Below the pieces are notes generated by a model. That model did no database searches and had not been told where the DNA came from. It saw only the letters and a program-made list of their open reading frames with translations. 34,268 nucleotides of DNA, taken from positions 1-34,268 of the forward strand of contig JACQZR010000311.1 in NCBI GenBank assembly GCA_016213775.1, read 5' to 3'. Shown here piece after piece: positions 25,120 to 29,785 of the stretch (position 1 is its first letter; every line of letters starts with the position of its first letter). This DNA is from Acidobacteriota bacterium (GTDB lineage Bacteria > Acidobacteriota > Terriglobia > Bryobacterales > Bryobacteraceae). Position numbers and translations under genes: made by a program.

Positions 25120-25383
25120 ATGACAATTAGGATTGAACTCCCTCCTGAGTTGGAAGAGCGGTTTCTTGCTCAAGCAAGAGCTCGTGGAGTTTCCGTTGGC
25201 GTTTGCGTTGAGGAGTTCCTGGCGCGCTCCATTCGGCCCTCGATGGAACCTCGACAGCTTTCCGCAGAGGATGTGGACAGGCTTTTTGAGGAAGCCGCGG
25301 ATCTGGTTCCCCCAGGAGTGCCGCCCCTTTCCGATGAGGCGATGAGCCGCGAGGGCATCTACACTCGCGAAGATGAGTGGTAG
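25120..25383 (+). CDS. vapB: VapB-like antitoxin
   Basis: The 87 aa protein starts MTIRIELPPELEERFLAQAR, ARGVSVGVCVEEFLAR, a ribbon-helix-helix/CopG-like DNA-binding pattern, with an acidic C-terminal tail (EDVDRLFEEAADLVPPG, YTREDEW) that would embrace a PIN toxin. It overlaps the downstream vapC by 7 nt. TATAGG 5 nt before the ATG could be a -10 element, which would make the transcript nearly leaderless. The antitoxin is intact while the toxin is not. Confidence 0.72.
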   Translation: MTIRIELPPELEERFLAQARARGVSVGVCVEEFLARSIRPSMEPRQLSAEDVDRLFEEAADLVPPGVPPLSDEAMSREGIYTREDEW

Positions 25384-25780
25384 CGTCAGTGCTGATTCTG
25401 GCCGATACTAATGTGCTTCTTCGAAGGATTCAGAGGAACCACCCCCAGCATCGTCAAACGAAAGAGGAGATCGCACGGATTGTGCAGCGCGGTGACGTGT
25501 TGTGTGTGACCGCGCAGAACCTTATCGAGTTCTGGGCAGTCTGCACGAGACCAGTCGACAACAACGGGCTTGGTCTTCTCCCGGCACAGGCAAGCCGCAT
25601 TCTCTCGCGCATCGAGAGATCAGCCGTGCGGCTCAGCGGATGACACACGGCGTTTCCGGCAAGAAGAGCCATGACGCCCGTCTGGTTGCAGCCATGAGGG
25701 TTCACAAGTTGACGCATGTGCTGACGTTCAACGTCGATGACTTCCAGCGTTTTCCGGGCGTCGTGCCAATCCGGCCGTGA
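25377..25780 (+). pseudogene. vapC: VapC PIN-domain toxin with internal deletion and frameshift
   Basis: From GTG 25377: LILADTNVLLRRIQRNHPQH, with the first PIN aspartate in ADTN, then VTAQNLIEFWAVCTRPVDNN, GLGLLPAQASRILSRIERSA, ending at TGA 25641-25643. The remainder appears in another frame: HGVSGKKSHDARLVAAMRVH, KLTHVLTFNVDDFQRFPG to TGA 25778-25780, with the later acidic residues of the PIN site (HDAR, NVDDF). Between SAVRL and HGVSGK the family has about 15-20 residues (a LLPDTPAIYPEW-like helix) that are missing here. So a deletion of roughly 50 nt also broke the frame. PIN toxins cleave RNA; this one should be inactive. Confidence 0.78.
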
Positions 25781-25848: not shown

Positions 25849-26766
25849 ATGAGCGAGACGGTTGCATTTGTGGCGCGGCATGGCTACCTCCTGCTCTTTG
25901 TGTGGATTCTCATTGAGCAGGCGGCGCTGCCGTTGCCTTCGGTGCCGTTGCTGCTGGCGGCGGGCGCGCTGGCCAAGAGCGGGAATCTGCACGCAGGGCT
26001 GGCGATTGGGGCTTGCGTGACGGCGAGCCTGTTGCCGAACCTGGTGTGGTTCTTTGTGGGGCGTGCGCGGGGGACGCGGGTGTTACGGTTTCTGTGCCGG
26101 ATCGCGATTGAACCGGATTCCTGTGTGCGCCGCACCGAGAACATATTCACACGCTATGGGATGCGGGCGCTGCTGGTGTCGCGGTTTGTTCCGGGGTTGA
26201 ATGCGGGGGCTGCGCCGATGGCGGGGAGGTCGGGGGTCGGGTTGGCTCGGTTCCTGATGTTCGATGCGGCGGGGGCAGTCTTGTGGGCGACGCTACTGAT
26301 CGGGACCGGGTACGCGTTCAGCAGCCAGTTGGAAACAGTTGCGGGGTATCTGTCGCAAACGGGTTCGGGGCTGTTGGTGTTCTCTGCCGCGATCACCGTG
26401 GGGTGGATTCTGGTGAAGTGGATCCAGCGGGAGCGGTTCCTGCGAAAGGTTCACCAGAACCGGATCACCGTGGAGGAACTCCGCGTGCTCCTCGATAGCG
26501 GCGAACCAACCTACATTGTCGATCTGCGAGGAGAGCTGGATGGGGACGCGTCGATTCCGGGGGCATTGCGATTCACCGCGACGGACTTGATGGAGCGGCA
26601 CTGGGAGATCCCGCGCGACCGCGAGATCATCCTCTTCTGTAGTTGACCAAACGAAGCATCGAGCGCCCGTGCGGCGCTGCTGTTGAGAGCGAAGGGAATC
26701 ACCCGGGTGCGTCCGCTCGAAGGCGGATTCGAGGCGTGGGTGACCACCTTTCCAGGCGGGGCTTGA
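25849..26766 (+). CDS. DedA family membrane protein fused to rhodanese, with in-frame TGA (possible Sec)
   Basis: Residues 1 to about 195 are a DedA/SNARE-associated-type membrane protein (ILIEQAALPLPSVPLLLAAG, VSRFVPGLNAGAAPMAGRSG, WILVKWIQRERFLRKV). Residues about 205-305 are a rhodanese: TVEELRVLLDSGEPTYIVDL, IPGALRF, REIILFCS, then TGA at 26644-26646 (codon 266), then in the same frame PNEASSARAALLLRAKGI and RVRPLEGGFEAWV to TGA 26764. Homologues have a CSCPNE-type loop here, so TGA replaces a Cys codon exactly. A hairpin 21 nt downstream fits bacterial SECIS geometry. Either selenocysteine is inserted (305 aa) or the protein is a 265 aa truncation by a recent nonsense change. DedA proteins act in the inner membrane in lipid or proton-driven transport. 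Confidence 0.7.
26662..26678 (+). promoter_or_regulatory. Candidate bacterial SECIS-like hairpin after the in-frame TGA
   Basis: AGCGCC (26662-26667), loop CGTGC (26668-26672) and GGCGCT (26673-26678) form a perfect 6-bp stem with a 5-nt loop. The loop starts 21 nt after the TGA and has G as its second base. Published bacterial SECIS models ask for a 16-37 nt distance, a loop of 3-14 nt and a G in the first two loop positions; all are met. GC-rich DNA gives such hairpins by chance quite often. Confidence 0.4.
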
Positions 26767-26818
26767 CACAACTGCGGGGTCCGCTTATCCTATACGTGTC
26801 TGGATTCGACATGTCGAA
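26763..26818 (+). promoter_or_regulatory. Promoter and palindromic operator of padR-permease operon
   Basis: TTGACA at 26763-26768 and TATCCT at 26786-26791 are 17 nt apart and make a good sigma-70-type promoter; the -35 overlaps the second stop codon of the DedA-rhodanese frame. Downstream, TTCGACATGTCGAA (26805-26818) is a perfect 14-bp palindrome that contains the padR start codon (26811). Its place just after the predicted transcription start suits autorepression by PadR. Confidence 0.6.
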
Positions 26819-27149
26819 ACCTAAAGTAACAATTCCCCGCGACACACTCGACCTGCTGGTGCTGAGAACGCTGGCGACAATGGGCACGATGCATGGGTAC
26901 GCACTGGCGCGGCGCATTGAGCAGGTAGCGGGCGATTCGCTGCGATTGAGTCAAGGTTCCATTTACCCGGCGCTGATCCGCGTAGAGCAGGAAGGGTGGA
27001 TTTCCACGGGGTGGGGCGTCTCGGAAACGAACCGGAAGGTGAAGTTCTATTCGCTGACCAAGGCTGGACGGAAGCAACTGCTGGTGGAGGTTGCCAACTG
27101 GGAGAGAAACACCGCCCTGGTGGCGCGCTTCCTGGAGACGGAGTCATGA
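26811..27149 (+). CDS. PadR family transcriptional regulator
   Basis: The 112 aa protein starts MSKPKVTIPRDTLDLLVLRT, followed by the winged-helix PadR signature (GTMHGYALARRIEQVAGDSL, RLSQGSIYPALIRVEQEGWI) and the wing/dimerisation part (KVKFYSLTKAGRKQLLVEVA, NWERNTALVARFL). Short PadR repressors of this type often control the transporter encoded next to them. Its stop overlaps the permease start (ATGA), so the two are translationally coupled. The transcript is nearly leaderless and the start codon lies in a perfect palindrome, probably its own operator. Confidence 0.9.
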   Translation: MSKPKVTIPRDTLDLLVLRTLATMGTMHGYALARRIEQVAGDSLRLSQGSIYPALIRVEQEGWISTGWGVSETNRKVKFYSLTKAGRKQLLVEVANWERNTALVARFLETES

Positions 27150-29785
27150 CACTGCGCAGGATGGCGGCGCGCCTTGCCGCGAGTGTGCGGGCAAGGAAGA
27201 TGGACGAGGAACTGGGAGCCGAAGTAGAGGCCCATCTGGAACTCGCCGAGCGAGACGGCATGGCGCGCGGACTGTCCGCGGCCGAAGCCCGGCGGGAAGC
27301 GCTGATGCACTTTGGAGGAATGTCACAAATGAGAGAAGAGCACCGGGAGACGCGCGGCCTGGGCGCGATGGAGCATGTGGGGCGCGACTTGCGCCACGGG
27401 TTTGCGCTGCTGGCGCGCGAGCCTGGCTTTGCGGCGGTGTGCGCGGGATTGCTCGCATTGGGTATCGGCGCGAGCGTGGCGATGTTCAGCATCCTCGATA
27501 CGGCGCTGTTGAAGCCATTGCCGTTTGCCGATCCAGAGCGCATTGTACGAGTGTGGGAAGCGCCGCGGCCGGGAGTATCGAACGCCACCAGCACACTCGA
27601 TTACCTGGACTGGCGCCGCATGAATTCCGCTTTCGATGCGCTGTCGGCGTCGCGTCCGGTAGCGGTAGCCATGAGCGGTTCGGGGGAACCGGTGAGGCTA
27701 CGTGGCGCGGCGGTAACCAGCAGTTTCTTTCGTGTGTTTCCGACGCGTCCGTTGCTCGGCAGCGTCTTCACTGAAGCCGATGAACAGCCGGGCGCCGGAG
27801 GGGTGATCGTCCTCAGCCACTCGGCTTGGCGGAGCTACTTCGGAGCAGACGTGACTGTTCTCGGACGCCCGGTAGCACTGGATGGAGAAACGTACCGGGT
27901 GGTGGCGGTGTTGAGCCCTGGCCCAGGCGATTTGGCGCGCTCGGACTTCTGGATGCCGCTGGTGTTCTCTGCGGGCCAGCGTATTCGCGACTGGCATTGG
28001 CTGGAAATTCACGGCAGGATGCGGCCCGGCGTGACATTGGATCGCGCCAAAGAGGACATGAACTCGATACAGGCGGCGCTTGGCGATACCATGCCGGTCT
28101 GGAAACGCGATTGGAAGATTGAGGTGCAACGCGTGGACCGGCTTCTGGTGGGCGACAGGTTCCGTCAGTCGGTGTATGTGGTGTTCGGCGCGGTATTACT
28201 GGTTCTGCTGATCGCGTCGGCCAACGTGGCGAGTCTGTTGCTGGGCAGAGGGGCGGCACGAGGGAAGGAGATGGCGGTGCGGATGGCGCTGGGAGCGTCG
28301 CGCGGGCGGATTGCGGCGCAACTCACTGCGGAGACGGTGGCGTTATGCCTGGTGGGTGGCGCCGGCGGGCTTCTGTTCGCCTGGCTTCTGGTACAGATCA
28401 GCATTCCATTCGTGGCGCGGACGCTTCCGTATGCGCTGCCTCCGGCGATTGATTGGAGGGTCTTGGCGTTCGCCACTGGCATCGGGCTCGGAACGGGTCT
28501 GTTGACGGCGGTGATGCCCTCGTTCCGGACTTCCGCTGGTTCGCTGGAACGATTCCTGCGGCAGGCGGGTCGAGGGTCCTCCGGGGACAATCGCGCGATC
28601 CGCAAGTTCATTGTTGTGGGCGAAGTCGCTCTTTCGCTAGTGCTGGTTTGTGGGGCGATGCTGCTGTTCCGGAGTCTGGACAATCTGCAGCGGGTGGAGA
28701 CTCGCGCCCGGATTGAGAACATCCTCACAATGCCTGTGGAACTCCCCGGCAGAGCGTACCCTTCGGCGGCGCGCGCGGCACTGTTGTATGACTCGCTGTC
28801 GGAACGGATGAAGGCCATTCCCGGGGTGGTGGACACGGCGATCTCCACACAGTTACCTCTGCAATGGATTGGTAACGGCGAGGCGGTGCGAGTGCCTGGC
28901 GTTTCGCAGTGGATCAAGGTTCGATTCAAGCGAGTGGACCCTGGCTACTTCAAGACGTTCGGCATTCCGATGGTGGCGGGGCGTGGAATCGCGCCGGGAG
29001 ACCGCGAGGGGGCGGCGCGGGTGGCGGTGATCAACGAAGCTCTGGCGCGCCGTCTGGCCGAGGTAGCGGGGATGGGCAACCCGGTGGGACAAACTGTGAC
29101 GGCGTTGTGTCCGCGCTACGGGCAGACGGGGGGCGAGGAGCGTCAAGTGGGGATTGCCGGCATCGCCTTCAATGAGCGCACGACTTCGGCTGGCATGCAG
29201 GAACCGCCGGTGATCTATGTGCCTCTGGCGCAGACGCCGAGCGCTTCAATCCAACTGATTGTGCGGAGCCAAGGCGAGTTTCCGTCGCTGGCCCAGGGGC
29301 TTCGCGAGGCTGTTCGTGAGGTGGACCCCAACCTGCCGCGCCGGGAGGTGATCTCGATGCAGGAGATCCATGCGATGACGCTTTCCGGAGCGAGCCGTCC
29401 GGCTTGGATGATTGGGACATTTTCCGTGGTGGCAGTACTGCTCACCGCCATCGGCCTTTATAGCGTCATTGCCGAGACGGTGCTCCGGCGGAGGCGGGAG
29501 ATTGGCATCCGGATGGCGCTTGGCGCCCGCGCCGGCGACGTCGCCGGGCAACTGATTCGCGAGGGACTCCTCCTGGTGGCTACGGGCCTCGCGTTGGGCA
29601 TGATGGGAGTGTTCGCGCTGATGCGCGTGGTCAAGTCACTACTCTATGGAGTTTCGCCCTTCGATCCCGCTGCCATCTTGGCGGCCTGCCTGACGATGGC
29701 AGTCATCGGCCTGCTGGCGGGGCTGATCCCGGCAGCCCGTGCTGCGCGAGTGGATCCAGTGATCACGCTTCGCGAGGAAGGGTGA
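27146..29785 (+). CDS. ADOP-type (acidobacterial duplicated orphan permease) MacB/FtsX-like permease
   Basis: The 879 aa protein begins MTLRRMAARLAASVRARKMD with the ADOP N-terminal helical segment (DEELGAEVEAHLELAERDGM, ALMHFGGMSQMREEHRETRG). Two MacB-FtsX units follow: first helix LLALGIGASVAMFSILDTAL, MacB periplasmic core (PFADPERIVRVWEAP), FtsX helices with the cytoplasmic GKEMAVRMALGASRGRI; second periplasmic part (FGIPMVAGRGIAPGDREGAA) and a second FtsX unit with RREIGIRMALGARAGDV near residue 785-800, ending VDPVITLREEG. No ATPase is encoded beside it, hence orphan. Such permeases are strongly expanded in Acidobacteria and probably export or act as mechanical transmission proteins. 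Upstream padR is coupled to it. Confidence 0.92.
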   Translation: MTLRRMAARLAASVRARKMDEELGAEVEAHLELAERDGMARGLSAAEARREALMHFGGMSQMREEHRETRGLGAMEHVGRDLRHGFALLAREPGFAAVCAGLLALGIGASVAMFSILDTALLKPLPFADPERIVRVWEAPRPGVSNATSTLDYLDWRRMNSAFDALSASRPVAVAMSGSGEPVRLRGAAVTSSFFRVFPTRPLLGSVFTEADEQPGAGGVIVLSHSAWRSYFGADVTVLGRPVALDGETYRVVAVLSPGPGDLARSDFWMPLVFSAGQRIRDWHWLEIHGRMRPGVTLDRAKEDMNSIQAALGDTMPVWKRDWKIEVQRVDRLLVGDRFRQSVYVVFGAVLLVLLIASANVASLLLGRGAARGKEMAVRMALGASRGRIAAQLTAETVALCLVGGAGGLLFAWLLVQISIPFVARTLPYALPPAIDWRVLAFATGIGLGTGLLTAVMPSFRTSAGSLERFLRQAGRGSSGDNRAIRKFIVVGEVALSLVLVCGAMLLFRSLDNLQRVETRARIENILTMPVELPGRAYPSAARAALLYDSLSERMKAIPGVVDTAISTQLPLQWIGNGEAVRVPGVSQWIKVRFKRVDPGYFKTFGIPMVAGRGIAPGDREGAARVAVINEALARRLAEVAGMGNPVGQTVTALCPRYGQTGGEERQVGIAGIAFNERTTSAGMQEPPVIYVPLAQTPSASIQLIVRSQGEFPSLAQGLREAVREVDPNLPRREVISMQEIHAMTLSGASRPAWMIGTFSVVAVLLTAIGLYSVIAETVLRRRREIGIRMALGARAGDVAGQLIREGLLLVATGLALGMMGVFALMRVVKSLLYGVSPFDPAAILAACLTMAVIGLLAGLIPAARAARVDPVITLREEG

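Follow-up and report, generated by a model that had tools for sequence, protein, structure and literature searches.

Rhodanese-containing selenoproteins have been described in several forms. Table 1 of PMC13188914 (2026) gives 119 families or subfamilies, including five rhodanese forms, of which form 3 carries a C-x-U motif (U, selenocysteine, Sec) and form 5 is a rhodanese/DsbD fusion; form 3 is listed with the same motif in PMC9312934. That table's paper also deals with TsoB (NF045694), a rhodanese/DsbD fusion-like double selenoprotein in which a rhodanese is joined to a DsbD-like partner. Fusions of DedA to rhodanese (COG0586 with PF00581) are known as well, without reported Sec, and P. aeruginosa PA1209 has the same domain order as the fusion studied here (PMC10127716, PMC12893004). 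The passages of these two papers on the fusions do not mention Sec, and PMC10127716, where it touches on the link between rhodanese and lipid carrier, calls it unclear. The table of 119 families does not contain a DedA-rhodanese fusion, and 'DedA' and 'VTT' occur nowhere in the main text of PMC13188914. In the open-access literature we found no paper combining selenoprotein, rhodanese and DedA, and no paper with a title on a DedA selenoprotein.

In this study, we analyzed a stretch of 34,268 nucleotides (the window) from an Acidobacteriota genome of the class Terriglobia (10.96 Mb, 314 contigs, 98.48% complete, 4.6% contaminated). It contains a DedA-rhodanese fusion gene with an in-frame TGA. 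Translation by table 11 gives 265 aa with the stop at TGA 26644-26646, and read-through gives 305 aa. The features of the gene are as follows.

25849..26766, + strand: DedA(VTT)-rhodanese fusion gene, 305 aa with putative Sec at residue 266; ATG at 25849, terminal TGA at 26764-26766
25849..26457, + strand: DedA/VTT membrane domain with the helices that come after it, roughly residues 1-203 (Pfam places VTT_dom at residues 29-155; helices to residue 203 in the predicted structure)
26467..26742, + strand: rhodanese domain, residues 207-298 (Pfam Rhodanese; PDB rhodanese matches of the predicted structure)
26638..26640, + strand: codon of Cys264, the presumed catalytic rhodanese Cys (aligned with the loop Cys of 3tp9; conserved among rows)
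26644..26646, + strand: in-frame TGA, read as putative selenocysteine U266 in the loop C-S-U-P-N-E-A-S-S-A-R (conservation across homologous loci)
26662..26678, + strand: bacterial SECIS-type hairpin with a 6-bp stem AGCGCC/GGCGCT (26662-26667, 26673-26678) and loop CGTGC (26668-26672)

It is very probable that TGA 26644-26646 is decoded as selenocysteine and that the fusion is a selenoprotein, because the TGA persists across relatives and alternates with Cys, the hairpin tracks the TGA, the tail is under purifying selection and the Sec machinery is present in the genome. The frame was said in the initial annotation to continue through the TGA to a complete rhodanese end, and Pfam agrees: the 305-aa protein matches VTT_dom (PF09335) with 46.5 bits against a cut-off of 33.9 and Rhodanese (PF00581) with 44 bits against 22.2, over positions 1-100 of the 102 in the profile. 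The piece 26602-26763 by itself gives 30.3 bits for Rhodanese. TGA is used twice in this gene, as the putative Sec codon and as the terminal stop, and loci L034 and L131 seem alike in this respect.

A PIN-domain gene just upstream seems split over two overlapping frames (25377-25643 and 25502-25780, + strand); the first matches PIN with 26.6 bits over positions 1-48 of 120, and the second has no Pfam match. A small frame before it (25120-25383), also without a Pfam match, could be an antitoxin. On the 3' side (26643-29785, + strand), the window encodes a PadR-type regulator (63.7 bits) and, in a long ORF, a permease-like protein that we take to resemble FtsX-type permeases. Such permeases are common in Acidobacteriota. 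The neighbours of the fusion gene differ among seven loci, judged by eye on the longest open frames, and this context gives no function.

The best NCBIfam match of the fusion protein is NF041203, rhodanese_LYCAU ('rhodanese-related (seleno)protein', form 3), with 64 bits over profile positions 17-118 of 126. The two share the C-x-U motif; the fusion has [FY]C-x-U, in the form C264-S265-U266. However, the cut-off of 115 bits was not reached in any of the six fusions scanned (64 bits here, 67-82 in five relatives), and the model of 126 positions is too short for the DedA domain to which the rhodanese is fused here. None of eight places in the window's genome exceeded the NF041203 cut-off, and none of the nine NCBIfam matches of the fusion protein passed its cut-off in the release of June 2026. 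TsoB differs in having the motif UxxxxU, two Sec residues and a partner other than DedA, and it is not among these nine matches. We regard the protein as a new membrane (DedA) architecture built around a Sec rhodanese domain of an already known kind. Thus, the 'selenoprotein' in the initial proposal of a candidate new selenoprotein holds, given the TGA in 96 of 150 loci and the sel genes described below, whereas the 'new' applies to the architecture only, since C-x-U rhodaneses are already listed.

Among the matches listed from a search of 200 genomes of the family, we read all 73 that contain a single internal TGA (from 73 genomes), together with 37 of the roughly 77 that lack it. A second search covered 247 genomes of the phylum; 48 of these gave a match at an E-value of 1e-25, and 40 further loci were read. 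Twelve extra loci were left out of the counts: L139 and L140 equal L031 and L102, respectively, in a 400-base test, and the others match the rhodanese part or little more. The total was 150 loci, one of which lacks a codon aligned to 26644-26646. In the 149 aligned rows this codon is TGA in 96, TGC in 25, TGT in 18, Ser in 8, Gly in 1 and Arg in 1, these ratios being tilted towards TGA by the choice of rows. Neither TAA nor TAG was found at the column in these 149 rows. The TGA rows span 51 genera and 12 families, and 73 of the 200 family genomes carry the TGA form. The expectation that homologues carry Cys at the same place was correct, and the alignment holds both members of the TGA/Cys pair, with Cys in 43 rows. 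The position of Cys264 is Cys in all 96 TGA rows and all 43 Cys rows. Random further stops in the tails of close relatives, which would have spoken for decay, were absent; only two further in-frame stops occur in 43,863 codons, both TGA at the alignment end, 38 codons after Sec (L034 and L131). The residue is Ser, Gly or Arg in 10 of the 149 rows, and therefore Sec or Cys is not indispensable in every fusion.

A FastTree tree of 147 rows, made with the columns around Sec left out, gives 16 U/C changes; it is rough, with 44 of 144 inner branches open. The window gene belongs to a group of 21 rows, all of them TGA, with support of 100. A Cys (TGC) copy of the fusion, 49% identical, is present in the same genome (L059, G000:C84:40494-41399), and Sec copies are found alongside Cys or Ser copies in other genomes too (e.g. 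G058, G128 and G145). Ser replaces Sec in L117, L118, L120, L121, L122, L134 and L187, which form one starred branch in the tree. In L117, L118 and L134 the presumed catalytic Cys is Ser too, and the rhodanese half of these fusions may be non-catalytic. Loci L124-L129 and L169-L172 have the loop C-T-U without Pro after Sec and stand beside Cys rows; their placement in the tree also suggests TGA/Cys exchange.

In bacteria, the SECIS element is described as a downstream hairpin with a guanosine in a small apical loop, as far as the definition in PMC1088965 goes. The 6-bp stem, the loop CGTGC and the G at loop position 2 that had been noticed at this locus are all there; only the spacing needs correction, as the stem begins 15 nt after the TGA and it is the loop that begins at 21 nt. 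The inner four pairs can form in 92 of the 96 rows with TGA and in 8 of the 43 with Cys (Fisher 1e-20, the rows not being independent), and all six pairs in 76 vs 4. G at loop position 2 is present in every TGA row and in 20 of the 43 Cys rows. Codon usage in the stem follows the same division: in 69 near-full TGA rows, Ser is AGC in 67 of 69, and Ala is GCC in 65 of 65 and GCG in 69 of 69, vs AGC in 16 of 25, GCC in 8 of 20 and GCG in 14 of 28 for 28 Cys rows. Protein constraint does not explain this pattern, because the Ala at U+11 is invariant (69/69 TGA and 28/28 Cys rows) yet its GCG codon is frozen only in the TGA rows (69 vs 14). Both partners of pair 3, C-G in the window, differ in two of the TGA rows, which have T-A (L159) and G-C (L163) instead. 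The hairpin of L126 and L127 has a different form. On well-supported branches there are five independent pairs, too few for significance; on average, hairpin and TGA agree in 3.1 of these and disagree in 0, and for the loop G the figures are 1.7 and 0.

The energy of the single hairpin was tried as evidence and rejected, since it gave no signal over shuffled sequences: single-sequence folding was no more stable than shuffles (z of 0.14, -0.30 and 0.36 for 55, 40 and 121 nt), and the minimum-energy fold calculated for 121 nt lacks the hairpin. With up to two mismatches allowed, the TGA-spacer-hairpin pattern has a single occurrence in the window and none in 100 shuffles, which is weak evidence because the pattern was derived from the same sequence. 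After the terminal TGA, 5 of 6 base pairs are possible at the same spacing, but there is no G in loop position 2. Hence a SECIS-type hairpin, just downstream and with G in a small apical loop, emerges from the comparison of rows, not from folding of the single sequence. It is conservation across relatives, rather than the single sequence, that makes the observation rise above chance.

The sequence after the TGA also appears to be translated. For the five least divergent pairs of TGA rows, downstream pN is 0.014, 0, 0.036, 0.015 and 0, and pS is 0.125, 0.179, 0.242, 0.224 and 0.146. With pN low against pS, purifying selection is acting on the tail, which suggests that it is translated. Over 997 pairs, at saturated distances, the median pN/pS is 0.47 downstream and 0.70 upstream.

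The initial annotation let its proposal hang on selA, selB, selC (tRNA-Sec) and selD, and all four are present in the same genome. The tRNA-Sec reaches 77.6 bits (cut-off 47); ARAGORN labels it tRNA-SeC, anticodon TCA, and assigns the five next matches of the model (39-46 bits) to Ser, Leu or Cys tRNAs. SelA, SelB and SelD score 493.9, 379.6 and 349.7 bits, far above their cut-offs. Among 14 control genomes, the cut-offs were passed in 5 for tRNA-Sec, 1 for SelA, 2 for SelB and 2 for SelD. The selD gene has an in-frame TGA at its own Sec site (AKAAG-U-ASKL), and is therefore a second gene with a Sec codon in this genome. In tables sorted by hand, 175 of the 200 family genomes have Sec machinery. 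The TGA form is found in 70 of these 175 and in 3 of the 25 others (p 0.007), which is weak evidence because the machinery is common in the family. Of the 73 genomes with the TGA form, 59 have tRNA-Sec at an E-value of 1e-11 or better and 64 have SelA at 1e-60 or better, again sorted by hand; the 14 and 9 without a strong match are draft genomes. A laxer tRNA-Sec search in 13 of these 14 placed 11 above the 47-bit cut-off, at 47-55 bits. These 11 were left uncounted, since a tRNA-Ser of the window's genome reaches 45.7 bits and 183 of the 200 genomes pass 47 bits. Strong tRNA-Sec and/or SelA is thus present in 70 of the 73; the remaining G072, G075 and G134 have neither, and SelB is above cut-off in each.

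Other explanations of the TGA can now be weighed. A one-base nonsense mutation or a base-call error might truncate an ordinary DedA-rhodanese protein, and the initial annotation called such a mutation quite possible. The split PIN-domain gene nearby indicates that broken genes occur around this locus, and the hairpin alone is not unusually stable. However, TGA at the same codon in 51 genera, never replaced by TAA or TAG, contradicts that estimate, and neither the purifying selection downstream nor the freezing of the hairpin codons in TGA rows alone would be expected of a damaged gene. Conservation at one column rules out a fresh mutation or sequencing error, and we consider this explanation very improbable. 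Even less credible, to the point of being negligible, is a genome-wide change of code in which TGA means Cys or Trp. It would account for the exchange of TGA with Cys codons at the column, but each gene has a single internal TGA, always at the same column, across all the codons compared, the fusion gene itself ends in TGA, SelA and SelB of the genome have no internal stop, and a SECIS-type hairpin follows the TGA. Confinement of TGA to one column rules this candidate out.

Decoding of Sec competes with release factor 2, so that the UGA might act mostly as a regulated or programmed stop, yielding a DedA protein with a clipped rhodanese and leaving selenium-dependent read-through as a minor event. 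The existence of fusions with Ser at the column also indicates that variants lacking both Sec and Cys can persist. On the other hand, the tail is conserved at least as well as the front, and a stop here would cut the rhodanese fold within its active-site loop. A programmed stop thus seems improbable. In the preferred reading, decoding as Sec, SelB would bind the hairpin that lies 15 nt downstream and bring Sec-tRNA(Sec) to UGA 26644-26646. The product would be a 305-aa membrane protein with an N-terminal DedA (VTT) domain and a last membrane helix, followed by the rhodanese domain with its C-x-U loop.

In the HMMER alignment with the rhodanese half of 3tp9, C264 lies opposite the loop Cys, Sec266 is at +2 and the loop is two residues longer. 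Of the five alignments shown to solved rhodaneses, the other four are to one protein, Alr3790, which has Gly opposite C264. The earlier placement of Sec in the rhodanese active-site loop therefore stands, whereas its placement at the presumed catalytic Cys does not; Sec comes two residues later, in C264-S-U266. A PDB sequence search gave matches (9 sequences) only to residues 208-298, the rhodanese half. The predicted structure, made with three sequences (mean pLDDT 75.6, pTM 0.58), shows helices in the N-terminal half, followed by a rhodanese half. In a fold search, the rhodanese half matched solved rhodanese domains, persulfide-related enzymes included (best E 5.5e-4). Rank 1 is BH2092 (3nhv); the best 50 of 181 matches are mostly rhodanese-domain entries by title, and none of these 50 names DedA. 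CoADR-RHD and NADH-dependent persulfide reductases with a rhodanese domain are structural neighbours (3icr and 3ict at ranks 3 and 4, 6pfz at rank 20), but by title they are reductases without DedA. They are soluble Cys enzymes.

Residues Glu39, Asp51, Arg130 and Arg136 of YghB are named for undecaprenyl-phosphate flipping in the relevant part of PMC10127716. In eight aligned fusions, the position of Glu39 is acidic in 8/8 and that of Arg130 basic in 8/8, whereas that of Asp51 is acidic in 0/8 and that of Arg136 basic in 0/8; the window protein has E23, V32, R112 and N118 in the order of the four residues. Because the Asp51 and Arg136 positions are lost, we did not file the protein as a COG0586 undecaprenyl-phosphate flippase. 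Its function is probably membrane-anchored persulfide chemistry. The basic stretch after the last helix suggests that the rhodanese domain would face the cytoplasm. Cys264 would take sulfane sulfur as a persulfide, which the selenolate of Sec266 would attack, releasing sulfide and forming a Cys-S-Se-Sec bond that thioredoxin would reopen. Sec would give speed or resistance to over-oxidation. We propose this cycle on the basis of the C-x-U motif and general knowledge of rhodaneses and selenenylsulfides. That a cytoplasmic rhodanese with a Cys264/Sec266 cycle makes the protein a membrane-anchored persulfide reductase or sulfurtransferase is a tentative suggestion, to which we give somewhat less than an even chance.

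Alternatively, the selenoprotein might serve selenium handling, with DedA moving a selenium or sulfur oxyanion or lipid-linked sulfur and the C-x-U rhodanese reducing or relaying it, perhaps to SelD. DedA has reportedly been tied to selenite resistance, as the title of a paper by Ledgham in 2005 has it. DedA of Ralstonia metallidurans is mentioned as involved in selenite uptake (PMC11422209), and two of the four flipping residues are absent in all eight fusions, so the cargo may differ. These selenite-linked DedA proteins, however, are not shown to be of the DedA-rhodanese type. The sel genes lie on contigs other than that of the fusion gene in this draft genome, the neighbours vary between the seven loci, and the frequency of Cys forms speaks against a role linked to selenium supply alone. 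A role in selenium handling is therefore unlikely. We are similarly doubtful of its broadest version, a phylum-wide Sec-dependent import-and-reduce unit in which DedA, with half of the lipid-carrier signature, would pass a sulfur or selenium species, such as selenite or a persulfide, to its own C-terminal C-x-U rhodanese for reduction.

For Acidobacteriota, few selenoproteins are on record: one genome with three selenoproteins is recorded in PMC12013277, and four proteins in three families were counted in 2006 (PMC1794560), as far as the entries on this phylum go. If the TGA is decoded as Sec, a membrane-transporter-type fusion joins the list of selenoproteins. Annotation that reads the TGA as a stop would cut such genes at the active site. 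Sec and Cys copies within one genome would be a natural experiment on what a rhodanese gains from selenium, and the unexplained link between DedA and rhodanese would become testable.
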